64,000 nucleotides of DNA. Source: Bugula neritina (lineage: Eukaryota; Bryozoa; Gymnolaemata; Cheilostomatida; Bugulidae). Under the pieces are notes generated by a model. It searched no databases. It was not told the origin of the DNA and worked only from the letters and a program-made list of their open reading frames with translations. Made by a program: the position numbers and the translations under genes. Shown one piece after another: positions 16,469 through 42,473 of this stretch (position 1 is its first letter; every line of letters begins with the position of its first letter). The stretch lies in NCBI GenBank assembly GCA_964035545.1, contig OZ037772.1:1391001-1455000 (forward strand), written 5' to 3'.

Positions 16469-16735
16469 TACATACTATACTATAGATATACTATGCTATA
16501 GATATACTATGCTATAGATATACTATGCTATAGATATACTATGCTATAGGTATACTATACTATAGATATACTATACTATAGATATACCATGCTATAGATA
16601 TACTATGCTATAGATATACTATGCTATAGATATACTATGCTATAGATATACTATACTATAGATATACTATGCTATAGATATACTATACTATAGATATACT
16701 ATGCTATAGATATACTATACTATAGATATACTATG
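16469..16735. repeat. 16-bp minisatellite left of the Polinton (TATAGATATACTATGC)
   Basis: About 16 units. The same array resumes at 31095 on the other side of the Polinton, so the element inserted into it. Confidence 0.95.
16730..16735. repeat. Target-site duplication, left (ACTATG)
   Basis: ACTATG directly precedes the Polinton and is repeated at 31095-31100. A 6-bp duplication is the Maverick/Polinton norm. The flank is itself repetitive, so chance agreement is possible. Confidence 0.7.
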
Positions 16736-16894
16736 AGTAGTAGGTGGATGGTCCTAGGACAACCCTTCCCCCGTCGAGTCTTTGACTCTCCGGTGTCAGG
16801 GATTGTCCTAGGACGCATCCACCTACTACTACTTCATTAGTTTTTTTATTAATTTTTAGAAATTATACGTTTTAGGACAGTTTATTATTTTATT
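16736..16894 (+). repeat. Polinton left terminal inverted repeat
   Basis: It matches the complement of 30933-31094 with few differences (the right end has one extra AGT). The outer 97 bp contains an internal palindrome: the arm at 16736-16762 pairs with 16803-16830 apart from one bulged base. The roughly 40-nt loop has its own GAGTC-TTT-GACTC stem and flanking CCC/GGG and CCG/CGG pairings. Confidence 0.95.
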
Positions 16895-17030
16895 GAGTTT
16901 ATTGTCCTAAAATTGTACGTTTTTTAGGGTAAACATTAACTTTTATTTTAGAATGCATTTACTTGTTACTATTAGTAATAGAAATAAATTATTATATTCT
17001 TAACGTATAATAATTTATTATCAATAGCGT

Positions 17031-17927
17031 TTAAACGTTATAACTTGAAAATACTGGTAAAGATTCAGTAGATTCTGTTATATCTCCATCACTCGTTGAT
17101 AATACTAATTTATTACCCGTTGCTCCTTGTAATTTAGGAATAGCGTGATTATTTATATTATTTATTGTAATAATATCGGTAATATTTATACCGGTTTCTA
17201 CGATATTACCATCACTCGAAAGCATTAATAATTTACCTCCGATTGACGGTTGTATTTTATTCATAGCAAAATTATTTATATTACTAGTCGTAACGACATC
17301 GCTAACGCTTAAGCTACTATCCACAACATTACCCGAAGTAGTTGAAACGATTAATTTTTCATTCGCGGGTTGTATTTTATTTATAGCGAAATTATTTATA
17401 TTACTAGTCGTAACGACATCGCTAACGCTTAAATTACTATCAATAATATTACCCGTATTAGTTGATACGGTTAATTTTTCAGTTGGGTCTCGTATAAGAG
17501 GTACGGCGTAATTAGATATATTAGTTTTTGTAACGACATCATCAACTTTTAAATTACTATCTATAACGCGTCCATCATCAGTTGATATAGTTAATTGGTT
17601 AATAGGGTTTTGTATAAGAGGTACTGCGTAATTAAATATATTAGTTTTTGTAACAACATCATCAACTTTTAAATCGCTATCTATAACGCCTCCATTATTA
17701 GTTGATATAGTTAATTGATTAATAGGGTTCTGTATTTTAGGCATACTCGTATTATCAACGTATTTTTTTGTAGCCGCGTCTTGATCGTCAGCCGGATCAA
17801 TGACTCTAGATATTTTATTTTCCCCCATATCTAGCGTACCCGTAAGAGTACTACTACCGTTTATTAAAACGAATTTTTTCGTATTTATTTCCGTTTTTCC
17901 ACTTCCTCCGAATTTATAAACACTCAT
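17031..17927 (-). CDS. Fibre-like repeat protein of the Polinton
   Basis: 298 aa. The N-terminus has a module common in phage tail fibres and in animal Polinton proteins (LTGTLDMGENKI, then DQDAATKKYVDN). Six tandem repeats of about 38-40 aa follow, each with the pattern I/L-Q-x(5)-L-x-(I/V)-S-(T/S)-x-x-G-x-(I/V), and each ending in a N-I-x-N-x-A-(V/I/M)-P/N step. Such repeats usually form an elongated trimeric beta-structure, so a receptor-binding spike or fibre is inferred. The ATG is 3 bp beyond the stop of the upstream ATPase gene, which suggests one leftward transcript. Unlike most genes here it lacks a TATAAATG start; the nearest TATA lies about 15 bp upstream. Confidence 0.65.
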   Translation of the reverse strand: MSVYKFGGSGKTEINTKKFVLINGSSTLTGTLDMGENKISRVIDPADDQDAATKKYVDNTSMPKIQNPINQLTISTNNGGVIDSDLKVDDVVTKTNIFNYAVPLIQNPINQLTISTDDGRVIDSNLKVDDVVTKTNISNYAVPLIRDPTEKLTVSTNTGNIIDSNLSVSDVVTTSNINNFAINKIQPANEKLIVSTTSGNVVDSSLSVSDVVTTSNINNFAMNKIQPSIGGKLLMLSSDGNIVETGINITDIITINNINNHAIPKLQGATGNKLVLSTSDGDITESTESLPVFSSYNV

Positions 17928-17930
17928 TTC

Positions 17931-18689
17931 TTACGGTATATAAAATTCGGCTAAGCTATGCCTATACCTTCCATTATTTTTTGAGGAAGAAAGATCTAAA
18001 GTAATAAAGCCGTGAGGTTTTTGCCATCCTTTATAACAAAAGTTTTTAAATTCGTTTAATGTTAAATCTCCGTTTACGTGATCTTGATATATATGATTTA
18101 AATTTTTTCCGTCTTGAGGAAATAAGCAAATAAAATTAGCGTTTTCCCGAATAGTGTTTCTAGGCAGCTTAAAATAATTTTGCGATAAATAAAAGCAATC
18201 GACGTTATTGTGTCGTCCTCTTACGTAATAACTTTCGCAAGTTTTTTGTTTTTCCAACATTAAATCATCGAATATTATTAAATTTTTATTACTAGCGTCT
18301 AATTCGCTAGGGTCATAAACGTCGTCACTAGATTCAATAAATTCGGCGTCTATATTACCGTTACCCTTACTATTTTTTAAAACACGAGTTACATTTATAC
18401 CCGAATTTATTATCGCGTCACTATTTTTAAAAAAATTTAAAATTTCTTCTTTAGTTAATTTACGTTCGAAAGCCTTCCTCATATTTATATATTCGGGTTG
18501 AGAAAGGCTTTTACCGTAAATCATAAGTTTATCGTAATCGAGCCAATTAGGTTGTAATAGTAAGTTACAAAGTAATGTAGTTTTACCGCATCCAGATTTT
18601 CCAACGATAAGACCTCTTATGCTTTTAGGAAGTAAAGGATTATTATTACGATTAATTTCGTTTTTCCACGAAAGATTTTCTATTTCCAT
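17931..18689 (-). CDS. A32/FtsK-HerA-type DNA packaging ATPase
   Basis: 252 aa. Walker A GKSGCGKT is at residues 30-37 and Walker B LIIFDDL at about 137-143. A sensor-like block FYLSQNYFKLPRNTIRENAN at about 166-185 is typical of A32-like genome-packaging ATPases of Polintons and large DNA viruses. The role is ATP-driven pumping of the genome into the capsid. Length is normal for the family. It starts in a TATAATAAATG motif and shares a 12-bp palindromic spacer with the divergent integrase gene. Confidence 0.92.
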   Translation of the reverse strand: MEIENLSWKNEINRNNNPLLPKSIRGLIVGKSGCGKTTLLCNLLLQPNWLDYDKLMIYGKSLSQPEYINMRKAFERKLTKEEILNFFKNSDAIINSGINVTRVLKNSKGNGNIDAEFIESSDDVYDPSELDASNKNLIIFDDLMLEKQKTCESYYVRGRHNNVDCFYLSQNYFKLPRNTIRENANFICLFPQDGKNLNHIYQDHVNGDLTLNEFKNFCYKGWQKPHGFITLDLSSSKNNGRYRHSLAEFYIP

Positions 18690-18701
18690 TTATTATAATA
18701 A
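18690..18701. promoter_or_regulatory. 12-bp palindromic divergent promoter
   Basis: TTATTATAATAA is its own reverse complement. With the two flanking start codons it gives each gene the same TATAATAAATG start context. Nothing else separates the ATPase and integrase genes. Confidence 0.6.
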
Positions 18702-20066
18702 ATGTATTGTTGTAAGTGTAAAACTAAAACGAGAACTCTTAATTATGAAAAGAAAGTATGTAAAAATAATAGACTAATGGGTTACGGTAATTGCGGTCAA
18801 TGCGGATGTAAAAAGACTACATTCGTTGGGTCGGGTTTAGCGAATAATTTAATAAATAATTTACCTTTTGAATTGCATTATCCAGGCCATAATTTTTTAG
18901 GACCCGGTACTAAATTAAATAAGCGTCTTAATGACGACATGACTCCTAAAGAATGGAGTAAACCGGTAGATCGAGACGACGCTATAGCCATGAGACACGA
19001 CGTGTGTTACGCGCTTAATAAAGATACTAAGACTAGAAACGAAATATGTGATAAAAATATGTTAGACGAACTGAAAGCTATACCTAATCCTACGCCCGCC
19101 GAACAGCGACACAGTCGTTTTGCTTCAGCAATAATAGGAGCGAAAAAGCGTTTAGGATGGGGGTGGACGAACGAGTTAGCCGAAGAATTACATAAATCTG
19201 TACAAAAAAAATTTCGTAAAAGACGAGTTTGGGTATCGGGTATTGATAATATTTGGGCGGCTGACTTGGTTGATATGACTGAATTTGCTAAATTTAATAA
19301 CGGTTATAAATATTTATTAACGGTAATAGACGTGTTTTCAAAATACGGTTGGATAATACCTTTAAAAAATAAAACCGGTAAAGCGACGGCTTTAGCTTTA
19401 AAAACAATTTTAACTCGTCGTAAACCTCAACATTTATGGGTTGACAAGGGAAAAGAGTTTTATAATAAAGACGTAAAGTCCTTAATAGACTTATATTCTA
19501 CGGAAAATGAAGAAAAGTCTAGCGTAGTAGAGAGGTGGAATAGAACAATGAAAGAGCGAATGTTTAAATATTTTTCAGCGAATAATACTTATAAATATAT
19601 AGACGTATTAAAAGATTTAGTAAAACGATATAACGAGACTAAACATTCGTCTATTGGAATGACACCGATTGAAGCTAGTGATCCTTTTAATGAAAATAAA
19701 GTACGCGTGAAATTATATCCAAACTTACCCGCGCCTTCTAAACCTAAATTTGTTATAGGCGATAGAGTACGTATACCGCGTAAAAAACGAACGTTTGAAA
19801 AAGGTTATACCGTTAGATGGACGGAGGAGGTGTTTACTATAAATAAAATATTATATACTAATCCAACGACTTATAAATTAACCGACTCGGGAGGAGAAGA
19901 AATTCAAGGATCTTTTTACGAACGGGAATTACAAAAGACGAAGCAAGAAATGTATAGAATAGAGCGCGTAATTAAAAAGAAAGGTAAAAAGGCTTTAGTA
20001 AAATGGTTGGGTTATCCCGATTCTCAAAACTCTTGGGTAAATTTAAACGTTTTAGAACGATTATAG
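18702..20066 (+). CDS. Zinc ribbon - phospholipase A2 - integrase - chromodomain fusion
   Basis: 454 aa. Residues 1-45: zinc-ribbon-like (CCKC near the start, CGQCGC at 31-36). Residues about 54-125: parvovirus-type PLA2, with the calcium loop YPGHNFLGPGT (60-70) and catalytic RHDVCY (His99-Asp100, Tyr103). Residues about 175-340: rve integrase with D188 (WAADLVD), D248 (LWVDKGKEFY) and E277 (SSVVERWNRTMK). Residues about 415-454: chromodomain (ALVKWLGYPDSQNSWV). In parvoviruses the PLA2 breaches endosomal membrane; integrase inserts the element, and a chromodomain may steer it to marked chromatin. The D-to-E gap is 28 residues, about five fewer than usual. A single frame joins the parts with no ATG in a TATAAATG context between them, so processing by the viral protease is possible. 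Starts in TATAATAAATG. Confidence 0.88.
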   Translation: MYCCKCKTKTRTLNYEKKVCKNNRLMGYGNCGQCGCKKTTFVGSGLANNLINNLPFELHYPGHNFLGPGTKLNKRLNDDMTPKEWSKPVDRDDAIAMRHDVCYALNKDTKTRNEICDKNMLDELKAIPNPTPAEQRHSRFASAIIGAKKRLGWGWTNELAEELHKSVQKKFRKRRVWVSGIDNIWAADLVDMTEFAKFNNGYKYLLTVIDVFSKYGWIIPLKNKTGKATALALKTILTRRKPQHLWVDKGKEFYNKDVKSLIDLYSTENEEKSSVVERWNRTMKERMFKYFSANNTYKYIDVLKDLVKRYNETKHSSIGMTPIEASDPFNENKVRVKLYPNLPAPSKPKFVIGDRVRIPRKKRTFEKGYTVRWTEEVFTINKILYTNPTTYKLTDSGGEEIQGSFYERELQKTKQEMYRIERVIKKKGKKALVKWLGYPDSQNSWVNLNVLERL

Positions 20067-20185
20067 TGGACACAAATGTGAAAATTAGACACAAAAGTGG
20101 ACATAAATGTGGACACTAGACACAAATGTGGACACAAAAGTGAATATTAGACACAAAAGTGGACACAAATGTAGACACAAATTTG
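20067..20185. repeat. Array of eight 14-bp iterons
   Basis: Degenerate direct copies of T(G/A)GACACAAA(T/A)GTG fill the gap between the integrase ORF and the next gene, some separated by AAAT or AATAT. It is one of the few non-coding gaps in the element. Iterons of this kind bind replication initiators or transcription factors elsewhere; the function here is inferred only. Confidence 0.8.
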
Positions 20186-20196
20186 TGTTTATATAA

Positions 20197-21003
20197 ATGA
20201 GTTACTTAAAGATTCACGACCCTATAAAAAGAGATAAAACCGTACAAGATTTTATTTCTCAAAAGAATAAATTAAAAGAAAATTTTAAACGAGAACGCGA
20301 GCGAGAATTAAATGCGGCTATAGCTCAAGAAAAATATTTTGAACCCGTAATTACTTCTCAAGCTCAAACGACTGACGCGTTAAAACAATTGCTTACATTA
20401 CCCAATTATAATGTTCAACCGGCTATAACGGATGGAATTATAAATTTAGACGAATTTACTCAAAATGCTTTAGCTGGCTTAGAACTTGGCGCTTATAACG
20501 TAAAGTGGGATGGTAATAGACACGTTATTGGTACGAAACCTATAAGCTTTAACGATGGTAAAATAATGTTTGATAACGAAGAATATCCGGCGACTAGAGG
20601 ACTTTTAAGTCTTTTAACGCGTAAAACGCCTATAGGATATGATGATAATGATTTAGCGAATTACGCTAATATACTCGATAATAGCGGCGCTATATATCAA
20701 AGTAAACACGGTCCTATAGATAAAAATAGTGACAAGTGGAGACGTATTGTTAGACCTATTTGGGAACAATTATATCCTCAGAGAGCGAAACTCGCCGATA
20801 GTAAAAAAGCTAAAAGACAAGTCGGTGATGGAGTAGTATATTTATCGTCTGATCCTAACGCTTTAGTAGAACGACTCGAACTTTTAATTTCTAGCGCTAA
20901 AGCCGGAAATACGGGAGTACGAAACGAAATTGTGTCTATATTAGACGAATTACTTAGAATGAAAATTATTACTCGTGACTATTATAAAAGTATTCTCGTA
21001 TAA
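20197..21003 (+). CDS. Conserved Polinton protein of unknown function
   Basis: 268 aa. The N-terminal half is highly charged and helical (KLKENFKRERERELNAAIAQ). The second half has a compact block, EEYPATRGLLSLLTRKTPIG, followed by YDDNDLANYANIL and WRRIVRPIWEQLYP, an arrangement I associate with proteins of cnidarian and other invertebrate Polintons. Its position between integrase and capsid genes suggests a virion or assembly protein. No catalytic motif or membrane segment is seen. Starts in TATATAAATG. Confidence 0.7.
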   Translation: MSYLKIHDPIKRDKTVQDFISQKNKLKENFKRERERELNAAIAQEKYFEPVITSQAQTTDALKQLLTLPNYNVQPAITDGIINLDEFTQNALAGLELGAYNVKWDGNRHVIGTKPISFNDGKIMFDNEEYPATRGLLSLLTRKTPIGYDDNDLANYANILDNSGAIYQSKHGPIDKNSDKWRRIVRPIWEQLYPQRAKLADSKKAKRQVGDGVVYLSSDPNALVERLELLISSAKAGNTGVRNEIVSILDELLRMKIITRDYYKSILV

Positions 21004-21006
21004 TAA

Positions 21007-21318
21007 ATGTATGTTTACGATAAAAGACAACGATTACAAAGACATTACGCCGGTGGTGGAATATTCGATACCATTAGGAATGTAGTAACTAAAATAGCTA
21101 GTAATTCTAGCGTAAGAGAATTAGGTAAAAAGGCTATAACTAAAGCGGGTACCGCGGCCGGTGAAAAAATTGTTAACGCGATTAAAAAAAGAAGGCAAAA
21201 AAAGTTGAATGCTAAAAGTCAAGCTATATTACAAAAACTTAATTTAGCTAAAAATATATTAAATAATAATAATATAAGCAATATTTTAGAAGGTTCTGGA
21301 CAAGCTATAGCTTATTAA
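21007..21318 (+). CDS. Small basic protein, possible virion core or minor capsid protein
   Basis: 103 aa, strongly basic (KKRRQKKLNAK near residue 62). A glycine-led amphipathic segment GGGIFDTIRNVVTKIAS lies at about 16-32. This combination recalls the core (pX/pVII) and membrane-lytic (pVI) proteins of adenoviruses and the small virion proteins of Polintons. The start is 3 bp beyond the preceding stop, in TATAATAAATG. Assignment rests on composition and place in the capsid cluster. Confidence 0.6.
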   Translation: MYVYDKRQRLQRHYAGGGIFDTIRNVVTKIASNSSVRELGKKAITKAGTAAGEKIVNAIKKRRQKKLNAKSQAILQKLNLAKNILNNNNISNILEGSGQAIAY

Positions 21319-21339
21319 GAAATTATTTTACTATAATAA

Positions 21340-22614
21340 ATGGACTCTCTAAACATTACACAAAAAATTGTACTCGATACGAGCGTAGAGCGCGATCAGG
21401 TACACGAATATGAACCCGTAACGGGAACGAATTTAAATTACCCCGGTGAAATTAGAATAGTTATTAATCAGCAAGATTTGTACGTTCAACCGAGTAAAAG
21501 TTATTTAATTATTGAAGGTCGTTTAACTAAAGCCGACGGAACCGCATACGCCGACGCCGACTTAGTAACGTTAACGAATAACGGTATGGCTTATTTGTTT
21601 AAAAGTATTAGATATCAACTCGACGGACACGACTTGGAATATATAAATAATCCCGGACACGCTTCTACTATAATGGGTTTACTAACTTACCCCGACGACT
21701 ACGGCAAGTCGAGAGGTCTTAATCAGTTGTGGTCAAAAGATACTACCGCAGCCGCAGCCGCCGCTAATTTAGGTTTTAACGCGCGTCAAATTTATATTAT
21801 ACAAAAGCCAGATCCTAAAGGTACTTTTAGTATTAAAGTGGATCTTAGACATTTGTTTGGGTTTGCTGACGATTACGAAAAAGTTTTGTACGGTATAAAA
21901 CATCAACTCACTCTCGTACGCGATACTAATGATAATGCTATATTTAGAGCAAACGGTGTAGACGCCGGTAAAATAACGTTGGATAAAGTATCGTGGTGGA
22001 TGCCTCATATAACACCCAACTTTGAAATGAAACATAAGCTTTATAAAATTATAGAGAGTAAAACGCAGCTTCCCATAATTTATAGGTCTAGGTGGTGTGA
22101 TAGTATCGCGGTGCCGCAAACTACTAACTTTACGTGGCGTTTGGGTTCTAGAGGAGATACCGAAAAACCTAAATATATTATTGTAGGTTTTCAAACGGAT
22201 AAGGCTGAAAGTCAAACGACTAATCCGGCAGTATTCGATCACGTTAATGTTAAAAGTATATACGCGATGTTAAATAGCGAGCGATATCCCGAAGTTGATT
22301 ACGATATAGATTTCGCTAAAATGAAGTTTAGTAGAGTGTACGGAGACGCTTCGAAATTTTGTGGAGAATATTACGGTATAAACGAGCTAATCGCTTATTC
22401 AAACGTATTACCTTCGGAATATAAAGATCTTTACGCTTTGTTCGTAATAGACGTTAGTAAGCAAAGCGAGGCTCTTAAAAGTAGCGTAGCCGATATTCAA
22501 TTAAGAGTTCAATTTAGTCAAAACGTGCCGGCTAATACTCAGGCGTACGCATTAATTCTATCGGATAAAACTATGTCTCTTAGTTCCGATGGAAACAATT
22601 TAAAAGTTATATAA
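21340..22614 (+). CDS. Double-jelly-roll major capsid protein
   Basis: 424 aa. It begins with the layout seen in Polinton and adintovirus hexons: an N-terminal strand (GEIRIVINQQDLYVQPSKSY) followed by LIIEGRLTK and a NNGMAYLFKSIRYQLDGHDL block, then mixed beta-rich sequence without enzymatic motifs. It is somewhat short for a Polinton capsid protein. It sits directly upstream of the minor capsid gene (stop and start adjacent), as usual for the group. Predicted to trimerise into pseudo-hexameric capsomers. Starts in TATAATAAATG. Confidence 0.82.
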   Translation: MDSLNITQKIVLDTSVERDQVHEYEPVTGTNLNYPGEIRIVINQQDLYVQPSKSYLIIEGRLTKADGTAYADADLVTLTNNGMAYLFKSIRYQLDGHDLEYINNPGHASTIMGLLTYPDDYGKSRGLNQLWSKDTTAAAAAANLGFNARQIYIIQKPDPKGTFSIKVDLRHLFGFADDYEKVLYGIKHQLTLVRDTNDNAIFRANGVDAGKITLDKVSWWMPHITPNFEMKHKLYKIIESKTQLPIIYRSRWCDSIAVPQTTNFTWRLGSRGDTEKPKYIIVGFQTDKAESQTTNPAVFDHVNVKSIYAMLNSERYPEVDYDIDFAKMKFSRVYGDASKFCGEYYGINELIAYSNVLPSEYKDLYALFVIDVSKQSEALKSSVADIQLRVQFSQNVPANTQAYALILSDKTMSLSSDGNNLKVI

Positions 22615-23373
22615 ATGGATAATAGAATTTTAAGAGAAATTGCTGATAATACGGCCTCTAAACAAACGATGACTATAGGAGTTACCGATACTAAAACGAG
22701 AATAATTACTCAAATTAATCCGCCTATAGAATTAAATAAAAATAAAAAATACGAAATGTGTCTTATTAGTTTGGATACGTTTTATTCTTTTCCAAACATT
22801 AGTACCGATAGAAATTCCTATAGATGGTCTAAAGACAGTGGTACTACGTGGTATTCAGTTTCGCTACCAATCGGAGTGTACGAATTAGATCAACTAGAAG
22901 AAGCTATTCAAGACGAAATAGTAAAAGAGGGGGGTAATAGAAACGGTATTACTTTGCAAGCTAATAAAGTAACTTTTAGAATTATACTTAAATTAAAACC
23001 TAATTATCGAATAGATTTTAACGTTGAAAATTCTCTAAGAGACGTTTTAGGTTTTGACGCGGCGATATATGATCAACCTTATATTGAAGCTACGAACATA
23101 GTAAATATTTTAAATATAAACGCTATACACGTACAAGTTGATTGTATTAATGGAAGTTATATCGATGGTACTTATAAACCCGTTATTTATTCATTTTTTC
23201 CAAGCGTTAGTCCGGGATATAAAATAATAGAAAAACCTCATAATTTAATATACTTGCCCGTTCACGTTAAATATATTAAGACGTTAACCGTTACAGTAAC
23301 CGATCAAAAGGGTAATTTATTAGATCTTAGCGGTGAACAACTTTCAATAAGATTTCATTTAAGAGAAGTTTAA
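22615..23373 (+). CDS. Minor capsid (penton-like, single jelly-roll) protein
   Basis: 252 aa, beta-rich. A central block has the form of Polinton penton proteins: YEMCLISLDTFYSFPNI, then LPIGVYELDQLEEAIQDEI, FRIILKLKPNYRIDF and LRDVLGF, and a C-terminal LSIRFHLREV. It abuts the major capsid gene with no gap (TATATAAATG, where TAA is the capsid stop). Predicted to occupy capsid five-fold vertices. Confidence 0.8.
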   Translation: MDNRILREIADNTASKQTMTIGVTDTKTRIITQINPPIELNKNKKYEMCLISLDTFYSFPNISTDRNSYRWSKDSGTTWYSVSLPIGVYELDQLEEAIQDEIVKEGGNRNGITLQANKVTFRIILKLKPNYRIDFNVENSLRDVLGFDAAIYDQPYIEATNIVNILNINAIHVQVDCINGSYIDGTYKPVIYSFFPSVSPGYKIIEKPHNLIYLPVHVKYIKTLTVTVTDQKGNLLDLSGEQLSIRFHLREV

Positions 23374-23385
23374 CGTATTATATAA

Positions 23386-23955
23386 ATGGGTTATTGCGAA
23401 ATTATAGGAAATGTGCCACAGGCGCAAAAACAAAAAATAATGAACGCTTATAGAAGCGGTAAGGGTTGCGTTATTAAATTGCCTCTCGAAAGCGGAAACG
23501 ATAAACTACTCGTTACAAAAACGCAAAATGATAATATTTTAAAAGCGTTAAACGCGAATAAAAAAAATATAACGCTCGAAATGTCTCCGTCATTAGTAAA
23601 AACTAACGCGTCAATGAGCGGAGGATTTTTAGGAGCTCTATTGGGTATAGCTACGAGAGTAATACCTACGCTATTAAAAACTATTATACCGGGTGTACTT
23701 TCAGGAGCCGCTAGCGCCGGAGTCGAAAGAGCTATTAAAGGTAAAGGTCTTTATTTAAAAAGAGGCGGGTGCGTATGTTCCGTAGAACCTAATTCAAACG
23801 GTTCTATTACTTTAAAACCAGTCGCGTCGTCTAATTTAATGAAGGGTAATGGTTTATATTTAAAACAAGGTTCTAGTTATATAAAAGGCGAAGGTTTAAT
23901 TTTAGGTCCAAATAGTCCGTTTAAAAACATTCCTCTTTTAGGTATGCTGTTATAG
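23386..23955 (+). CDS. pVI/X-like virion protein
   Basis: 189 aa. A hydrophobic, glycine/alanine-rich segment (GGFLGALLGIATRVIPTLL) is at about 79-97. It is followed by three copies of a GxGLxL motif: GKGLYLKRGG, GNGLYLKQGS and GEGLILGPNS. The end is NSPFKNIPLLGMLL. This form is found in invertebrate Polintons and resembles adenovirus pX/pVI in having a membrane-active helix with a possible protease-trimmed tail. Starts in TATATAAATG 12 bp after the preceding stop. Confidence 0.72.
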   Translation: MGYCEIIGNVPQAQKQKIMNAYRSGKGCVIKLPLESGNDKLLVTKTQNDNILKALNANKKNITLEMSPSLVKTNASMSGGFLGALLGIATRVIPTLLKTIIPGVLSGAASAGVERAIKGKGLYLKRGGCVCSVEPNSNGSITLKPVASSNLMKGNGLYLKQGSSYIKGEGLILGPNSPFKNIPLLGMLL

Positions 23956-23974
23956 TTTAAGAAAATATATATAA

Positions 23975-24369
23975 ATGTTAACAGTAATTACTTATAAGCA
24001 CCTCAATTACCGAAACGATATATAAAAATAATGATTGTAAAAAACGAGTATACGAAGGAAAGAAAGAATTATATATAAAAAATTTAATATATTAAACGAC
24101 GTCTAACGAGTGCGAATTACTTATAATAATAAAAAGAAATTATTTATAAAGAAAATGATGGAAAATTAAAAATAAAAATTATTTACAAAAGTAAAGAAAT
24201 AATTCAAGAACTTAACGTAGGTTTAATGACGGCTAAAATACCGTCATTCTTTATTAAACTAAAATACGCCGAAGACGAAATAACGCTTTATATTAAAATA
24301 AAATATATTATAGTTAAAGAAAACATATATAAATGTGTGTATAATACGGCACACGTAATTCGCTCTTAG
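23975..24369 (+). pseudogene. Decayed Polinton gene
   Basis: It opens with the element's normal start motif (ATATATAAATG at 23967-23977), but the frame stops after 16 codons. Coding-like sequence resumes in other frames (for example RVYEGKKELYIKNLIY at about 24045-24093) and a 70-codon open stretch runs to TAG at 24367-24369 (for example KIPSFFIKLKYAEDEITLYI). At least two frameshifts and several stops separate the pieces. A second TATATAAATG at 24326-24335 lies in the middle of the last piece. Lysine- and isoleucine-rich; original function unknown. Confidence 0.55.
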
Positions 24370-24429
24370 GACCGATTATTACGCGCTATTAGCAGCCTAT
24401 ACGGATATTTTTGTATTAAACTCCCTTTT

Positions 24430-24458
24430 TTAATTAATTATAATATATAATTAATTAA
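24430..24458. terminator. AT palindrome between convergent genes
   Basis: TTAATTAATTATA and TATAATTAATTAA form a 13-bp stem with a 3-nt loop, at the stop codon of the two-TM gene and after the decayed gene. A transcription end or processing hairpin is plausible but unproven. Confidence 0.4.
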
Positions 24459-24934
24459 CAAACGTTGTTACGAGCGACTATTATGTCACTTTTTTTATCC
24501 GATATTACGCTATTAATATTTTTATATTTTTCGGTTATAGCGTCGTACTCTCCTTCGTCTATATGAGAGTCGCTTAAAAATTTTGATAACATAGAATTAA
24601 TTTCTAATTTTGAATCTTTTATAAACGTATATATATCTAAATACATTAACGTAGATTTAATTAATTTAGTATCTTGAGAAGAAATAGAAGTAGTAATTAC
24701 ACTCATTATACTTACAATTATAGATAATGGTAATAACGTTTGTTTAGTAACGTTAGCGTTTAATAACGCCGTAATAATAACACCGCATATTAAATTCGTT
24801 GTACCGCATAATCCCGAAATTATTTTTAACGATTTTGATAACCAATTAAAACGATTAAGTTTTTGTTCGTATTCACGTTCTAATTTAATAATTTCATCGT
24901 TTAAAAGTTCTAATTTTTCTCGTCGAAACTCCAT
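24455..24934 (-). CDS. Two-transmembrane coiled-coil protein
   Basis: 159 aa. Residues 1-30 are a charged coiled coil. Two hydrophobic helices lie at about 35-58 and 66-84, and a helical tail contains SDKKSDIIVARN. The layout (coiled coil, two TMs, coiled coil) is reminiscent of SLATT-type two-TM effector proteins, but no signature residue allows assignment. It could be a virion membrane or host-interaction protein. It is transcribed against its neighbours and starts in TATATAAATG. Confidence 0.6.
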   Translation of the reverse strand: MEFRREKLELLNDEIIKLEREYEQKLNRFNWLSKSLKIISGLCGTTNLICGVIITALLNANVTKQTLLPLSIIVSIMSVITTSISSQDTKLIKSTLMYLDIYTFIKDSKLEINSMLSKFLSDSHIDEGEYDAITEKYKNINSVISDKKSDIIVARNNVC

Positions 24935-24976
24935 TTATATAAAAAATTGATTTTTATTATTTTATTATTTTATAAT

Positions 24977-25213
24977 ATGGAGTTTACTATTGAATTACTC
25001 GATAAACTAATCGTTCAAGCTAAACAAAAAAAATATATACCTCTTCCCGAACATACATTTATGCGATTAACCGATTATTCTACCTTAAATATTAATTCCA
25101 TGTCGAATGAAGATCGAGATAAATTATTTAAACATTTTAATAAAAATTTAACATCGCGGCGTAAAGTAACTAAACTTAAAGCGCAAATAAAAAAAATTCT
25201 CGAAGACGTATAA
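24977..25213 (+). CDS. Small Polinton protein of unknown function
   Basis: 78 aa from the ATG at 24977, which follows TATAAT. An upstream in-frame TTG at 24947 is unlikely to be used. It is charged and helical, with a basic C-terminus (LTSRRKVTKLKAQIKKILED). It begins MEFTIELLDKL, much like the polymerase (MEFNTKITVKVL), which may reflect a shared upstream sequence. No domain recognised. Confidence 0.55.
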   Translation: MEFTIELLDKLIVQAKQKKYIPLPEHTFMRLTDYSTLNINSMSNEDRDKLFKHFNKNLTSRRKVTKLKAQIKKILEDV

Positions 25214-25270
25214 AACCTATTTTTTATTAAAAAATTGATTTTATAGTTTAAAGATTTTTTTACTATATAA

Positions 25271-28200
25271 ATGGAGTTTAATACAAAAATTACCGTAAAA
25301 GTTTTAAAGGCTTTAGCTAAAGAAAGAGGATTGAAACGATATTCTCAATTAAAAAAAGCCGAACTTATACGGCTATTATCGCCTATGGACGAACCCGTTC
25401 CGAATATAGGACAAGCCCCGTTAATACCTACACCCGTAAAAAAAATTATGCGAGAAATATTTACGCAAACTACGCGTAATATAAAAAAATGGGTTAAGGG
25501 TATTGTAAAGCCAATTGGAAAAATTGTAAATCCAATTAAGGATAAAATTATGGCTTTATATAATCAGCCTAAGCTTAAAGAACAAGCCGCTAAAGGTTGG
25601 TTTCAAACTTATGAAATTAAGGGTTTACCCAAATACGATATAAATTCATTTAGTAAATTAGTAAAATTAAATGTAATAAAATTATTAAAACCTACTATAA
25701 AAGTTAAAATATTTATGTATTGCGAAATGGAAAAAATTAATGTACGTACCGGAGAAACTATTGTAGAAATTATGCCATTTACATCAAATATTGAAACTAT
25801 ATTAGAGTCTACGAATATTAATGAAATATACGATGAAATAATTGAACGTATAAAAGAAAATTTTGCTTCGTTAAACGCAAAAGGAAGTAGCTGGATGTTT
25901 AAAGCCATTAAAAAAATGGAAATTAATATTAATAAATATCAACCTCTTAACGGATCATCGTGGATTGATCTTCCAAAAGAAATTAAATTAAAAAAAGCCG
26001 TAATAAATCCTAAAAATGAGGATAATAAGTGCTTTATGTGGGCCATTTTAATGAGTGTTCATACGCCTAAAAACCACCCCGAAAGAATTAGTAATTATAA
26101 AGAACACGTTAATAAATTTTCATGGGAAGGAGTAGAATTTCCCGCTACTAAAAAATCTATTGACGCTTTTGAAGAGGTTAATTCCGATTTTGGAATTAAT
26201 GTATTTCCGTGGGACGGCAAAACAATAAATTTATGGAAAAAAACTAAAAATCAGGGTAAAATTATAAATTTATTTTATATAAGCGACGACAAAAAGAGTC
26301 ATTACGCTTATATTAAAAATTTAAATAAATTACTCGGTTCGCAAATAAATAAACGCGTTAGCGCTAAACATATTTGCGTAAATTGTATGAATTCGTTTCG
26401 ATCTAACGAATCTTTAAAAAAGCACCAAGATTGGTGTTTAACGAATGACGGTGTAACTACGGTCTTTCCGAAAATAGAAAATAAAATAAAATTTCAGTCT
26501 AGTCATTATTGCCGTAGTATGAGAGTGCCATTTACGATATACGCGGACTTTGAGTGTTTTACTAAACCAATATACGGTTGTAAACCTAATTTTAAAGAAA
26601 GTTATACTAATCAATATCAGCAACACGAACCATCAGGCTTTGGATATTATATAGTAAGCATTACCGGCGAGTGTAATTATAGAAGTTATACCAAAGAAAC
26701 CGAAGACGAAGATATTGGCGAACAATTTATAAGATTATTAGAGTTTGACATTAAAAACTTGTATAAGAAACATAAGTTTGCTAAACGAATGAGAATTACG
26801 AATAGTGAGCAAGAGTCTTTCCAATTAGCCGAAAATTGTTATATATGCGAAGAAAAATTAGGCGATGACAGAGTGAGAGATCACTGCCACTTAACCAGAG
26901 ACTATAGAGGAGCGGCTCATAATAATTGTAATTTAAATTATAAAATTCCAAAATTTTATCCAATATTTATTCATAACTTGTCGGGTTATGACGCCCACTT
27001 ATTTATTAAAAATTTAGGCGGTGAACCTTCGTGTATACCTAATACCGAAGAAAAATATATATCTTTTAGTAAAAAATTATTAGTAGACGAATTTATCAAT
27101 AATAAAGGTGAAAAAATTAAAGTTACGCGTGAAATTCGCTTTTTAGACTCGTATAAATTTATGAGTTCTAGTTTAGCGAGTTTAGTAGCGAATTTAAAAC
27201 GCGATGACTTTAAACATTTGCAAAAACAATTAGACTGTTACGCGGAAAAACAATTAGACTTATTGTTAAGAAAAGGAGTATTTCCGTATGACTATTTTAA
27301 TAGCGTAAACGTATTAAATGAAAAATATTTACCGCCTAAAAAAGAATTTTACTCGAGTCTAACCGAGAGTAATATATCGGACGAGGATTACGAGCACGCT
27401 CAAAAAGTTTGGCAAGAATTTAATATGAAAACGTTTAAAGATTATCACGATTTATATATGAAAGTCGATGTATTACAGCTAGCCGACGTTTTTGAAAATT
27501 TTAGAAACGTATGTTTAAAACATTACAAGTTAGATCCCGCTTGGTATTATACGGCTCCGGGTTTAAGTTGGGACGCTATGCTTAAAACCACTAAATTAGA
27601 ACTAGACCCAATTACCGATGTTGACCAATTACTCTTCTTTGAAAAAGCTATTAGAGGCGGTGTAAGTATGATCAGTCATAGATACGCTAAAGCCAATAAT
27701 AAGTATATGGAAAATTATAACGCTAGCGAACCTAGCAGTTATATTACTTATTTAGACGCTAATAACTTATACGGTTGGGCTATGTCCAAAAATTTACCTA
27801 CGAGTAATTTTAAGTGGATGACTGAAAAGCGATGTAAAGACTTGGAAAAAAGTTTAAATTTTCCACCTAGCTTTTTAGAAGTAGATTTAGAATATTCTAA
27901 AGAGCTACACGACTCGCATAAAGATTATCCATTTTGCCCCGAAAGAATAATAATTAACAAAGTAGAAAAGTTGGTGCCAAACTTAAATAATAAAAAGAAT
28001 TACGTTATACATTATAAAGCGTTAGAACAATGCCTTATGTACGGCTTAAAATTAACGAAGATTCATAGAGGTATAACCTTTAACGAATCAAATAAGTTAG
28101 AAAAATATATAAAATTAAATACCAAATTAAGAACTTTAGCTAAGAGCGATTTTGAAAAAGATTTCTTTAAGCTGATGAATAATTCCGTGTTCGGTAAAAC

Positions 28201-28939
28201 GATGGAAAATATACGAAATAGAGTTAACATTAAGTTAGTTACTAGCGAAAGCGAAGCTAAAAAGCTAACTAATCAGCCTAACTTTAAAAACTTTACTATA
28301 TTTTCTGAAAATTTAATAGCCGTTCATATGAATGTAGTAAAATTAAAATTTGACAAGCCTATATATTTAGGTGCGGCTATATTAGACATTAGTAAAACTC
28401 TAATATATAACTTTCATTACGGTTATATTAAACCAAAATATAATAAAAATGCGCAATTATTATTTACGGACACGGACAGTCTAATGTATCACGTAAAAAC
28501 GAAAAATTTTTATGAGGATATATTACCAGACATTACTAGAATATTTGATACGAGTAATTATCCTAATAATCACTTATTACCAACGGGTATAAATAAAAAA
28601 GTAATAGGTATGTTTAAAGACGAAGCCGGCGGTAAACAAATTACCGAATTTGTAGGCCTAAGAGCTAAGTTATACTCTTACAAGATGGATAATATAGAAG
28701 AAAAAAAGTGTAAGGGTATTAATAAGACTACTCGTAATAATCGCATAACATTTGACGATTATAAAGAGTGTTTATTAACGCGACAAGATCAGCTTAGAAC
28801 GATGAACGTTCTAAGAAGTCATAAGCATACGATGTACGCTGAAACAATAAATAAGGTGGCGTTATCATCCGAAGACGATAAAAGAATTATATTAGAAGAC
28901 GGTATAATGACAGTCCCTTACGGTTATATAAATGATTAA
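25271..28939 (+). CDS. Protein-primed family B DNA polymerase
   Basis: 1222 aa, the full length expected in Polintons. A SAP-like helical pair is at residues 8-36. A C2H2-type finger (CVNCMNSFRSNESLKKH) lies at about 368-384. Exonuclease motifs: YADFECF (about 423), HNLSGYDAH (about 568) and YHDLYMKVD (about 725). An endonuclease VII-like zinc loop, with CYICEEKLG followed by DHCHLTRDYRGAAHNNCN, sits between the first two. Polymerase motifs: LDANNLYGWAM (A), KLMNNSVFGKTMEN (B) and LFTDTDSLMY (C). All key residues look intact. It replicates the linear genome from terminal-protein-primed ends; the N-terminal 350 residues may include the terminal protein. Starts in TATATAAATG. The last 8 bp overlap the protease gene. 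Confidence 0.97.
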   Translation: MEFNTKITVKVLKALAKERGLKRYSQLKKAELIRLLSPMDEPVPNIGQAPLIPTPVKKIMREIFTQTTRNIKKWVKGIVKPIGKIVNPIKDKIMALYNQPKLKEQAAKGWFQTYEIKGLPKYDINSFSKLVKLNVIKLLKPTIKVKIFMYCEMEKINVRTGETIVEIMPFTSNIETILESTNINEIYDEIIERIKENFASLNAKGSSWMFKAIKKMEININKYQPLNGSSWIDLPKEIKLKKAVINPKNEDNKCFMWAILMSVHTPKNHPERISNYKEHVNKFSWEGVEFPATKKSIDAFEEVNSDFGINVFPWDGKTINLWKKTKNQGKIINLFYISDDKKSHYAYIKNLNKLLGSQINKRVSAKHICVNCMNSFRSNESLKKHQDWCLTNDGVTTVFPKIENKIKFQSSHYCRSMRVPFTIYADFECFTKPIYGCKPNFKESYTNQYQQHEPSGFGYYIVSITGECNYRSYTKETEDEDIGEQFIRLLEFDIKNLYKKHKFAKRMRITNSEQESFQLAENCYICEEKLGDDRVRDHCHLTRDYRGAAHNNCNLNYKIPKFYPIFIHNLSGYDAHLFIKNLGGEPSCIPNTEEKYISFSKKLLVDEFINNKGEKIKVTREIRFLDSYKFMSSSLASLVANLKRDDFKHLQKQLDCYAEKQLDLLLRKGVFPYDYFNSVNVLNEKYLPPKKEFYSSLTESNISDEDYEHAQKVWQEFNMKTFKDYHDLYMKVDVLQLADVFENFRNVCLKHYKLDPAWYYTAPGLSWDAMLKTTKLELDPITDVDQLLFFEKAIRGGVSMISHRYAKANNKYMENYNASEPSSYITYLDANNLYGWAMSKNLPTSNFKWMTEKRCKDLEKSLNFPPSFLEVDLEYSKELHDSHKDYPFCPERIIINKVEKLVPNLNNKKNYVIHYKALEQCLMYGLKLTKIHRGITFNESNKLEKYIKLNTKLRTLAKSDFEKDFFKLMNNSVFGKTMENIRNRVNIKLVTSESEAKKLTNQPNFKNFTIFSENLIAVHMNVVKLKFDKPIYLGAAILDISKTLIYNFHYGYIKPKYNKNAQLLFTDTDSLMYHVKTKNFYEDILPDITRIFDTSNYPNNHLLPTGINKKVIGMFKDEAGGKQITEFVGLRAKLYSYKMDNIEEKKCKGINKTTRNNRITFDDYKECLLTRQDQLRTMNVLRSHKHTMYAETINKVALSSEDDKRIILEDGIMTVPYGYIND

Positions 28940-29345
28940 AATAAAAAATATGAAATTACCAAATAAAGCTCTTTCAAATATCGAATTAGAGTTCGCAATT
29001 AAAAAATTAAAAATACCATTTTTTAAAGGAGTATTTTCAAGAAACGATTTACCCAATAAACCGCGTAAAAAAGAGTGCGGTATATTAAATTTAGACAATT
29101 TAATGGGTAACGGTACTCATTGGGTAGCTTGGTATAAAAACGGAAATAAAAAATATTATTTCGATAGTTTTGGATTACATCCACCGCTAGAAATAATAAA
29201 ATATTTAAAACCGCCTATATTTTATAACACGGAACGAGTACAAGAATTTGGTACCGTTATATGCGGACACTTGTGTTTATATTGGCTTAAAGAAATGTCT
29301 AAACACGAGTCGCCTCAATTAATTATAAATAAATTACTTATATAA
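28932..29345 (+). CDS. Adenain-like cysteine protease
   Basis: 137 aa. Catalytic residues of the C5/Ulp1 fold are in order: His63 (GTHWVAWY), Asp78 (YYFDSFG), Gln104 (VQEFGT) and Cys111 (ICGHLCLYWL). In adenoviruses the homologue matures capsid and core proteins; here the capsid proteins, pVI/X-like protein and perhaps the PLA2-integrase fusion are candidate substrates. The start lies inside the polymerase end in TATATAAATG, which favours this ATG over the later one at codon 7. Length is short but normal for Polinton proteases. Confidence 0.92.
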   Translation: MIKIKNMKLPNKALSNIELEFAIKKLKIPFFKGVFSRNDLPNKPRKKECGILNLDNLMGNGTHWVAWYKNGNKKYYFDSFGLHPPLEIIKYLKPPIFYNTERVQEFGTVICGHLCLYWLKEMSKHESPQLIINKLLI

Positions 29346-29858
29346 ATGACTTCAGTTTATATTTTTGGAAATTCGGCTAATATAATAAATGAACAACCGT
29401 ATATTACGAATATTATAATTCCGTCAGAATTTACGTATTATTTAGGAGGATTTACTACTACATTAATTAAAGATTTTTTAGTCGATGAACCGATTGAAAT
29501 AACGGATATATTAGTACAATTTTACGGTGAACAAGCTCATAATACTAAAAAACTTTATTGGACTGATAAGCGAATAGGCTTACATATTAGAAATAGTACT
29601 GAATTATTTAATCCATCCAATGAAAATACTTTTTATGATATAAGCGGTAATGAACACAATCTTCCGTTTAGCGAAATAAACGCTAATAAAATTATTGAAG
29701 CTAATAAAAACTTTAAATTAACAATAGCGTTATCAAAAAATTATCCTAGTCATAAACCCAGTGACATAGTTTTAATCGACACTCCCGCTAGCGAAATAAC
29801 CGATGCGGCATTACCCTTTCATTACGTATTAGTAAAACTTTATTATAACTATAAATGA
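29346..29858 (+). CDS. Tandem paralogue 1 (right-end family), unknown
   Basis: 170 aa. Beta-rich, with no catalytic motif or TM segment. Family hallmarks: F-x-N-S-A at the start, ITNIIIPSEF, F-x-(V/D)-(D/E)-(E/K)-P-I-(E/K)-IT, a LYWTDK core, the stretch YDISGNEHNLPFSEINANK and the tail ALPFHYVLVKLYY. It follows the protease gene directly (TATATAAATG). Position next to the terminal repeat and variation between copies suggest a surface or host-interaction protein, but this is inference. Confidence 0.65.
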   Translation: MTSVYIFGNSANIINEQPYITNIIIPSEFTYYLGGFTTTLIKDFLVDEPIEITDILVQFYGEQAHNTKKLYWTDKRIGLHIRNSTELFNPSNENTFYDISGNEHNLPFSEINANKIIEANKNFKLTIALSKNYPSHKPSDIVLIDTPASEITDAALPFHYVLVKLYYNYK

Positions 29859-30382
29859 ATTCGATATATATTTTTGGAAATTCGGCTAAAGCCAATATAA
29901 TAAATGAAAAACCGTATATTACAAATATTATAATTCCGTCAGAATTTATATATCTCGGTGAAGAATTCGGCTTTTACGCAGAATTAATTAGAGATTTTTT
30001 AGTCGATGAACCGATTGAAATAACAAATATATTAGTACAATTTTATGGTGAACAAGCTCATAATACTAAAAAACTTTATTGGACTGATAAACAAGTAGGC
30101 TTATCCGTTATAAATAGTGGTGAATTACTTACTAGAAATAATATTGAAAATACTCATTATGATATAAGCGGTGCTGAGCATAATGTTCCGTTTAACGAAA
30201 TAAACGCTAATAAAACTATTGAAGCTAATAAAAATTTTATATTATCAATAACATTATCAAAAAATTATCCTAGTCATAAACCTAGCAATATAATTTTAAC
30301 CGATACTCCCGCTAGCGAAATAACCGATGCGGCATTACCTTTTCATTACATATTAGTAAAACTTTATTATAACTATAAATGA
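29855..30382 (+). CDS. Tandem paralogue 2 (right-end family), unknown
   Basis: 175 aa and clearly the closest relative of paralogue 1: nearly identical through LVQFYGEQAHNTKKLYWTDK and the final 40 residues, differing mainly around the indels at about 35-50 and 95-110. The ATG overlaps the previous stop as ATGA. It starts in CTATAAATG. Confidence 0.65.
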   Translation: MNSIYIFGNSAKANIINEKPYITNIIIPSEFIYLGEEFGFYAELIRDFLVDEPIEITNILVQFYGEQAHNTKKLYWTDKQVGLSVINSGELLTRNNIENTHYDISGAEHNVPFNEINANKTIEANKNFILSITLSKNYPSHKPSNIILTDTPASEITDAALPFHYILVKLYYNYK

Positions 30383-30903
30383 ATCTTTATAAATTTAGTA
30401 AAGTCGATATAACGACTAATAAAGCGTTTATTTCGAGTTTAATACTTTACAGTAAATTTTATTATTATAAAAATATTAATAGTTTTACAATAGATTTAAT
30501 TAACGATTATTTAGTAGATAAACCAATTAAAATAACACACGCGTTAATACAATTTCATAATGAAAATTTATCTCGGAATAAAACAAAAGCATTATATTGG
30601 ACTGATAAAAAAATAGGTTTACATATTCGTAATAGCGTAAATCCATTTGATGAATCTAAAGAAAATTTATTTTATACTATTAGCGGTGCCGAACATAATG
30701 TTCCGTATAGTAAAATAAATATTAATAAAATTATTAACGCTAATAATAATTTTTCATTTACAATAGCTCTTTCGAGTGATTATACTAGTCATAAACCCAA
30801 TGACGTAATTTTAACCGATACTCCTAATGAGGAATATCCTGAAGTAGCATTACCTTTTAATTACGTATATTTTAAACTTTACTTTAATAACATTAACGAA
30901 TAA
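30379..30903 (+). CDS. Tandem paralogue 3 (right-end family), unknown
   Basis: 174 aa, more divergent. It keeps ALYWTDKKIGLHIRNS, TISGAEHNVPYSKIN and the ALPFNYVYFKLYF tail. The ATG again overlaps the previous stop (ATGA) in CTATAAATG. It ends 30 bp before the right terminal inverted repeat. Confidence 0.65.
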   Translation: MNLYKFSKVDITTNKAFISSLILYSKFYYYKNINSFTIDLINDYLVDKPIKITHALIQFHNENLSRNKTKALYWTDKKIGLHIRNSVNPFDESKENLFYTISGAEHNVPYSKININKIINANNNFSFTIALSSDYTSHKPNDVILTDTPNEEYPEVALPFNYVYFKLYFNNINE

Positions 30904-30932
30904 TATCGCTTTGTTTATTCTAAATTAACAAT

Positions 30933-31094
30933 AATAAAATAATAAATTATCCTAAAACGTATAATTTCTAAAAATTAATAAAAAAACTAATAAAGTAGTA
31001 GTAGGTGGATGCGTCCTAGGACAATCCCTGACACCGGAGAGTCAAAGACTCGACGGGGGAAGGGTTGTCCTAGGACCATCCACCTACTACTACT
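30933..31094 (-). repeat. Polinton right terminal inverted repeat
   Basis: Complement of the left repeat, including the 27-bp outer stem, the internal GAGTC-AAA-GACTC loop and CCTAGG palindromes. It ends CCACCTACTACTACT. Confidence 0.95.
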
Positions 31095-31626
31095 ACTATG
31101 CTATAGATATACTATGCTATAGATATACTATACTATAGATATACTATGCTATAGATATACTATACTATAGATATACTATGCTATAGATATACTATGCTAT
31201 AGATATACTATGCTATAGATATACTATACTATATATATACTATGCTATAGATATACTATGCTATAGATATACTATACTATAGATATACTATGCTATAGAT
31301 ATAATATGCTATAGATATACTATGCTATAGATATACTATACTATAGATATACTATGCTATAGATATACTATACTATAGATATACTATGCTATAGATATAC
31401 TATGCTATAGATATACTATGCTATAGATATACTATGCTATAGATATACTATGCTATAGATATACTATACTATAGATATACTATGCTATAGATATACTATA
31501 CTATAGATATACTATGCTATAGATATACTATGCTATAGATATACTATGCTATAGATATACTATGCTATAGATATACTATGCTATAGATATACTATGCTCT
31601 AGATATACTATGCTATAGATATACTA
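31095..31626. repeat. 16-bp minisatellite right of the Polinton (starts with target duplication ACTATG)
   Basis: About 33 units of TATAGATATACTATGC and variants continue the array interrupted at 16735. ACTATG at 31095-31100 is the right target duplication. Confidence 0.95.
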
Positions 31627-41723: not shown

Positions 41724-41756
41724 GTTTCTAGCTGAGACAATGAAGAGACGGAGAAT

Positions 41757-42473
41757 ATGACAGAGCACACAACGAAGCACCCGGGAGGTAAGCCAGCCAA
41801 TTTCTTGCATATGGAGGAGGTGTATAGAAGTAAACTGACCGCTCCCACCTTCACGGGTGTAGAAGACATAGAGCAATTCATTGAAGAATTCCACGATGTA
41901 GCAAACGTCGCTCAATGGCCGCCACAAGTAGCCCTCGTCAAGCTGCGGGAAGTATCGACGGAGCGCGCTAGACCGTTTGGACAAGGACGGAGCGTGGCGG
42001 AAATATTCACTACACTACGGGGCCGTTTTGGCATCCCCGCTCTGGAAGCCAGAGCCCGTCTACAGGTGCTACGCCAGGCGGAAAGCACTCCGCTCCGCGA
42101 CCACGTTGCCTTAGTGAAGAGGCTGGCGCTGAGCGCTTCAAGCGACCTGCCAGAAGCACACCGACGGTACTTTACTCTCATTGACTTTATGCAATCCCTA
42201 AAGGATGTGGGCCTTTGCCATCAACTACAGGCAAAGGGAGTGACCACTCTAGAAAGTGCCCTACAAGTCGGAGAAGACTACCTCTGGGCCGAACGGTTAC
42301 ATACCGGGAAACCAGAAAGCACACAAGTCACCGCGGAGATAGCCCAATCACTCGGAGGGAAGATGGGCCAGCTGAGTACCAGGCTGAAACAGATGGCAAA
42401 GACTCTTACTAATGCCGGGCCCCCTAATCAAGGACAAAAGAGAAAGACTACCCGGAGTGAGAGCAACAACTAG
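41757..42473 (+). CDS. gag: Ty3/Gypsy Gag
   Basis: 238 aa. Helical Gag/retrotransposon capsid core (for example APTFTGVEDIEQFIEEFHDV and DFMQSLKDVGLCHQLQAKGV), with a basic C-terminus. No CCHC zinc knuckle is present. The frame ends in a single TAG (42471-42473), and the same frame stays open beyond it into the protease. GC-rich compared with the host. Confidence 0.8.
   Translation: MTEHTTKHPGGKPANFLHMEEVYRSKLTAPTFTGVEDIEQFIEEFHDVANVAQWPPQVALVKLREVSTERARPFGQGRSVAEIFTTLRGRFGIPALEARARLQVLRQAESTPLRDHVALVKRLALSASSDLPEAHRRYFTLIDFMQSLKDVGLCHQLQAKGVTTLESALQVGEDYLWAERLHTGKPESTQVTAEIAQSLGGKMGQLSTRLKQMAKTLTNAGPPNQGQKRKTTRSESNN

Follow-up and report, generated by a model that had tools for sequence, protein, structure and literature searches.

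Late promoters of vaccinia virus (VACV) contain the sequence TAAAT, typically with a G behind it, so that promoter and start codon overlap (PMC11980589; see also PMC5294985 for the TAAAT(G) initiator of poxviruses). Slippage on the VACV TAAAT is reported in PMC7163114 and A-leaders in vaccinia in PMC12722222. In African swine fever virus (ASFV), promoter activity requires TATATA at positions -1 to +5 (PMC5294985), and a MEME analysis detected a late motif, variably spaced, in 17 of 55 late genes (PMC7163114). In virophages, a promoter shared with a giant virus has been taken as a clue to the use of that virus as helper (PMC10945749, PMC8547959). Here we describe a start signal of the short AT-rich type seen in poxvirus late messages on nearly every gene of an animal virus-like mobile element, a 14.4-kb Polinton/Maverick located in a 64,000-nucleotide stretch of the Bugula neritina genome (hereafter, the window; part of contig C8 of this 216-Mb eukaryotic genome). 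It is a question of general interest by what means the genes of animal Polintons are expressed, and which life style these elements have: that of an independent nuclear virus, of a transposon or of a satellite of a larger virus. With a single short motif on nearly all genes, the question becomes directly testable, and the motif may be relevant to the links that have been proposed of Polintons to large DNA viruses and to cytoplasmic linear plasmids.

A strict form of the signal, (TATATAA|TATAATAA|CTATAA)ATG, is found at 13 of the 15 open reading frame (ORF) starts of the element and at 4 of its 300 other ATGs (Fisher p = 6.5e-18; element limits 16735-31095 were used in the scripts), with TATATAA present at 7 of the 15 starts. 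The start set consists of the mechanically listed ORFs of at least 80 amino acids (aa) and g78 (78 aa), which was taken from the original prediction, made by a model from the sequence alone; two further listed ORFs, which run antisense inside the genes for the major capsid protein (MCP) and the polymerase, were regarded as chance frames and excluded. That prediction had placed the motif at 13 start codons on both strands, and all 13 were confirmed on checking. In simulations with Markov models of orders 1-3, fitted either to the whole element or to its noncoding part, the motif precedes 0.2-0.7% of ATGs; the highest probability that any of the six models gives for at least 13 matches in 15 is 1.5e-26. 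In the window outside the element, the motif is present at 1 of 1813 ATGs. The enrichment at starts is therefore real and far beyond chance, and an artefact of AT composition is rejected given the 13 of 15 against 4 of 300 and the simulations. The element, its genes and their start motifs are as follows:

16736-31094, no strand, Polinton/Maverick element of 14.4 kb, ends approximate, inserted in a minisatellite array
17031-17927, minus strand, repetitive ORF of 298 aa ("fibre" in the original prediction), the sole start here without the TATA/TAAATG motif
17931-18689, minus strand, A32-like packaging ATPase, start motif TATAATAAATG
18687-18704, no strand, 18-bp palindrome CATTTATTATAATAAATG with both divergent start codons inside and 12 bp between the ATGs
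18702-20066, plus strand, zinc-ribbon (DUF5679), phospholipase A2-like, rve integrase and chromodomain protein, start motif TATAATAAATG
20190-20199, plus strand, start motif TATATAAATG of g268 (20197-21003), alternating with TATAATAAATG among copies
20999-21009, plus strand, start motif TATAATAAATG of g103 (21007-21318)
21332-21342, plus strand, start motif TATAATAAATG of MCP (21340-22614, double jelly roll)
22608-22617, plus strand, start motif TATATAAATG of the 252-aa gene called mCP (22615-23373), no Pfam match
23379-23388, plus strand, start motif TATATAAATG of g189 (23386-23955)
23956-24454, plus strand, decayed gene region with two TATATAAATG sites kept (ATG at 23975 and 24333)
24932-24941, minus strand, start motif TATATAAATG of g159 (24455-24934)
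24977-25213, plus strand, g78 (78 aa), variant start TATAATATG
25264-25273, plus strand, start motif TATATAAATG of the presumed family-B DNA polymerase (25271-28939)
28925-28934, plus strand, start motif TATATAAATG of the C5-like protease (28932-29345), within the end of the polymerase ORF
29339-29348, plus strand, start motif TATATAAATG of p1 (29346-29858)
29849-29857, plus strand, start motif CTATAAATG of p2 (29855-30382)
30373-30381, plus strand, start motif CTATAAATG of p3 (30379-30903)

The four non-start matches are the two sites in the decayed stretch and two paralogous out-of-frame sites, at 29389 and 29904, in the tandem duplicates p1 and p2. That the decayed gene retains the motif had been claimed originally and holds: its counterpart in another copy, L041 (7488-7889), is an open ORF of 133 aa that starts in the same manner and is 80% identical to the decayed stretch over 415 aligned columns.

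Comparison with other copies, all within the single host genome, extends these counts. A phospholipase A2 search finds 34 integrase loci, and a capsid search finds 44 matches, part of them fragments of a single gene. N-terminal matches were collected from 64 of 77 loci (the 13 dropped are 2 of the window's own, 8 duplicates of covered elements, 1 on a contaminant contig and 2 without a usable start), counting distinct 80-bp sequences. Among the 192 matches, 136 show the strict motif, 40 another TAAATG, 3 neither (two g78, one mCP), and 13 have no ATG at the extrapolated place, so that TAAATG is present at 176 of the 179 distinct homologous or paralogous start ATGs, compared to 255 of the 5431 non-start ATGs in the same pieces (40 strict and 215 others with TAAATG, some of which will be unlisted starts). 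An earlier count that included duplicate pieces gave 169 matches (106 strict, 50 other TAAATG, 2 of the g78 variant, 11 without ATG). Because 40 of the 179 starts carry TAAATG without the strict motif, TAAATG is best seen as the near-invariant core, preceded by a variable AT-rich TATA front, with the strict motif as one form thereof. The motif TATAATAAATG is present at all 28 alignable MCP starts (30 loci, window included); in old MCP fragments, the start reads TTATATAAATG in L074 and TATAATAAATG in L075, and two other pieces compared held no MCP start. The divergent ATPase and integrase genes have their two start codons within the 18-bp pattern CATTTANTATAATAAATG. Genome-wide, this pattern is found at 32 places (59 strand hits; reversed control, 0), all adjoining Polinton genes: 31 of them are at integrase loci (31 of 34), and the remaining one is some 2.3 kb away from an MCP fragment. 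Even in L071, a copy with broken frames and 50-74% protein identity, TAAATG is seen at the starts of g103, MCP and g189 and of the frame after g189, which sits at the position of the decayed gene of the window; the mCP start codon is lost there.

The fibre gene had been singled out as the only one lacking the motif. This is so in the window (start at 17927, minus strand), but in other copies TAAATG is found at 20 of 20 distinct fibre starts (26 of 26 with duplicates; L024 and L041 are one element), so that the exception looks private to this copy. The variant TATAATATG at the g78 start (24977), as originally described, is identical in both other copies with an ATG there, a third copy having none. 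Sampling of g159, g78 and the polymerase is thin (2-3 copies each). For the protease, no N-terminal match was obtained in the distinct-sequence test; elsewhere, a shifted start with the motif is seen in L003, L036 and L042. The C-termini of foreign polymerase and MCP proteins, taken to stand in for the motif, gave no information, and titles and abstract openings of open-licence literature on Polinton/Maverick promoters contain no report of the motif.

The motif is present at the starts, specific to them and conserved among the copies. At positions -7 to -1 of the 13 genes, copies differ from the window in 35 of 805 aligned cells (4.3%), compared to 5032 of 36166 (13.9%) at codon position 3, 642 of 4460 (14.4%) in other intergenic DNA, 182 of 2300 (7.9%) at -30 to -11 and 3936 of 72389 (5.4%) at codon positions 1 and 2; the slower -30 to -11 flank is in part coding or may be under constraint itself. 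Sixteen of the 35 motif differences fall at g268, where one motif class is swapped for the other, and classes switch (TATATAA to TATAATAA) with TAAATG kept. Composition or shared ancestry alone, with no function for the motif, could be invoked given that the element is AT-rich and the copies are related. This explanation is highly improbable, as it conflicts with the counts at non-start ATGs (4 of 300), with the Markov simulations, with the slow evolution and with the occurrence of one motif on unrelated genes.

The same signal is located at divergent, isolated, tandem and overlapping starts on both strands, including those with an opposite-strand neighbour, where one palindrome serves two genes 12 bp apart. 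For this reason, a per-gene transcription signal is favoured over translational coupling, that is, over the possibility that TAAATG couples stop to start, with termination-reinitiation as the means by which ribosomes reach the downstream genes on polycistronic mRNAs. Several gene pairs do abut or overlap (gap 0 for MCP/mCP and protease/p1, -4 for p1/p2 and p2/p3, -8 for polymerase/protease, 3 for g268/g103), and the TAA of the mCP start motif doubles as the MCP stop codon. The motif is also found, however, at the uncoupled starts of the divergent ATPase and integrase, g159 (opposite-strand neighbour), g268 (130 bp), polymerase (57 bp) and MCP (21 bp), and coupling has no need of the upstream TATA part. 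Coupling is quite improbable and, as a general cause, is rejected given the motif at starts without a coupled upstream gene. A poly(A) signal of the upstream gene is also rejected: AATAAA is contained in the TATAATAAATG class only, and the divergent starts have no upstream gene on that strand.

Gaps between genes range from -8 to 21 bp at 10 of the 14 junctions and therefore leave little room for other promoters. Host Pol II promoters could lie inside neighbouring genes, with the motif serving as an AT-rich translation context (leader or Kozak-like). Many copies reside in an animal-like nuclear genome, some polymerase must act on the element there at some stage, and AT-rich leaders can help translation. 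Yet a good Kozak context has a purine at -3, and this position is T in 13 of the 15 starts; TAAATG at 176 of 179 starts is stricter than AT-richness, and the shared palindrome is left unexplained, which makes a translation context unlikely. The motif might also be a normal Pol II TATA box with RNA starting some 25-30 bp downstream. TATATAA is a good TATA box, and ASFV late elements are weakly TATA-box-like. The TATA of the motif begins 5-8 bp upstream of the ATG, and not the 25-30 bp upstream of a start site preceding the ATG that canonical Pol II use implies, so that RNA would start inside the genes. There is no second in-frame methionine in g103, p1, p2 and p3, the next one is residue 83 in MCP and 124 in g268, and many MCP relatives (among the 120 listed) share the same N-terminal start. 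Canonical TATA use of the motif is accordingly rejected and very improbable.

The observations are best compatible with a per-gene core promoter or initiator that overlaps the start codon and probably yields leaderless or nearly leaderless mRNA. We infer from sequence that the motif directs transcription and that RNA starts there. Under this mechanism, the AT-rich TATA part would melt or bind a factor similar to the TATA-binding protein (TBP), which reportedly targets vaccinia intermediate and late elements. RNA would begin in the A-run of TAAATG, and the product would be a leaderless mRNA or one with a short A leader, possibly untemplated, with slippage giving A(n)AUG. The original prediction, in which transcripts from such a promoter would be leaderless or nearly so and perhaps read by a dedicated or cytoplasmic polymerase, is partly supported: its promoter embedded in the start codon is the best fit, and the leaderless transcripts and the polymerase are inferences.

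Several points weigh against the reading as a core promoter or initiator. In line with the original prediction, which saw no RNA polymerase gene, Pfam detects no RNA polymerase domain among the ORFs of the element, nor a late-factor domain, where poxviruses encode both. One motif is carried by replication and capsid genes alike, where poxviruses have temporal classes. VACV has a conserved T ten bases before TAAAT, to which the starts show no clear counterpart (T at -13 in 8 of 15 starts, at -11 in 12 of 15). Compared with the other genes, motif positions show higher variation in the protease and in p1, p2 and p3 (14 of 77 cells together; 14-21% each, on 14-28 cells), where part of the alignments may be between paralogues. 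Finally, the cells in the divergence comparison come from orthologous starts in the same genome, overlapping pieces and related copies, and are not independent.

As to the enzyme that reads the signal, a polymerase of the poxvirus or asfarvirus type that a co-infecting virus would bring along, in the manner known from virophages, is a plausible candidate, and host Pol II acting in a non-canonical TATA/initiator mode is an equally plausible one; another enzyme seems somewhat unlikely. The late factor family PF04947 has no match in the host genome, but none in any of 14 controls either, so that this result is little informative. An RPB1 search of the host genome yields 11 matches. Ten form three clusters (3, 3 and 4 matches), which we assign to Pol I, II and III, and one is on contig C210. 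The latter (C210:74290-74781, L077) is a fragment of an RNA polymerase largest subunit with RNA polymerase III as the best PDB match, open only if TAA/TAG are read as Gln (ciliate code); C210 probably comes from a ciliate that contaminated the assembly or lives in association with the host.

Among the systems compared, vaccinia and mpox late promoters share with this locus TAAATG over the start codon (13 of 15 starts in the window, 176 of 179 in other copies), the AT-rich upstream part, per-gene promoters and a short or absent 5' untranslated region (here predicted), and differ in their encoded polymerase and late factors and in having a T-rich core, which is not clear here. ASFV late promoters resemble the motif in a TATATA placed right where initiation is expected, close to the ATG, but the virus encodes its own polymerase and relatives of TBP and TFIIB. 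Mavirus and the endogenous mavirus-like elements (EMALE) are likewise integrated, Polinton-related and equipped with a shared promoter-like motif, but theirs (TCTA) is different and matches that of the known giant virus CroV (PMC8547959), whereas the Polinton is known here without a helper. The yeast cytoplasmic linear plasmids pGKL1/2 resemble it in linear DNA, very short untranslated regions, an A-run initiator and A-leaders (PMC6831550), and differ in encoding an RNA polymerase and a capping enzyme and in their use of an ATNTGA-type element that lies farther upstream, at a distance from the ATG of about 30 and up to 100 bases. Vertebrate Mavericks have a similar gene set and (AGT)2//(ACT)2 ends (PMC8097293); a start-codon promoter is not described in the available text of that report, from which the terms "start codon" and "transcription" are absent. 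A virophage-like life, in which the nuclear cargo would stay silent until a cytoplasmic pox/asfarvirus-like polymerase reads TATATAAATG and makes leaderless or A-headed mRNAs, or else a relic of the expression system from which large cytoplasmic DNA viruses derived their late promoters, is a tentative and rather doubtful proposal.

The assignment of the element to Polintons is based on an rve integrase, an A32-like packaging ATPase and a double-jelly-roll capsid protein, all above the Pfam cut-off, and on near-identical terminal inverted repeats of about 160 bp that begin with AGTAGTAGG, an AGT-type end comparable to those of vertebrate Mavericks (PMC8097293). The hexamer ACTATG flanks the element on both sides, as a 6-bp target-site duplication would, but occurs many times in the surrounding repeat array. 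Each terminal repeat (16736-16835; mirror at about 30990-31094) could fold back hairpin-like on an inverted copy of its terminal sequence, and both arms carry GTCCTAGGAC. The C5-like protease scores below the Pfam cut-off (17.1 vs 21.3 bits). The long ORF 25271-28939 has no polymerase match in Pfam and at least 8000 homologues, those named among the matches listed being uncharacterized or transposon-derived; it is presumed to be a family-B DNA polymerase from its homologues, its place and motifs that we take to be those of this family. Named relatives come from Stylophora, Exaiptasia, Orbicella, Nematostella and the lacewing Chrysoperla (among the 120 listed of these at least 8000 homologues) and, in another search, from Ylistrum and Watersipora (among the 120 listed of 3287 proteins). 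Scans of IMG/VR and GTDB contigs confirmed no relative.

Several minor observations concern individual genes. In 18702-20066, the DUF5679 zinc ribbon, phospholipase A2-like domain, integrase and chromodomain are joined in a single ORF. A 162-aa relative of p1-p3, missing from the window, is encoded between the ATPase and fibre genes in other copies (L001 2209-2697, plus strand; L041 about 759-1247, minus strand). The 130-bp gap upstream of g268 (20067-20196) contains repeats of a GTGGACACAAATG-like unit. The sequence AAAATTGATTTT occurs twice in the element (24943 and 25231, plus strand; about 0.08 expected), each time some 35-40 bp upstream of the g78 or polymerase ATG; it is found twice in L002, once in L039 and not in L035, L037 or L041, and is a possible replication-gene element or duplicated promoter segment. 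AAAATTGA is reminiscent of the mimivirus early motif.

The flanks of the window, with a RING zinc-finger frame and a B-box frame below cut-off, are taken as animal-like. The window is mostly 30-40% GC, with a high-GC island (up to about 60%) at 41736-47047 that contains long retroelement-like frames. In the copy on contig C9 (L002, about 4588-5246), the capsid gene is interrupted by an insertion that matches 52317-52860 of the window and is probably a small mobile repeat.

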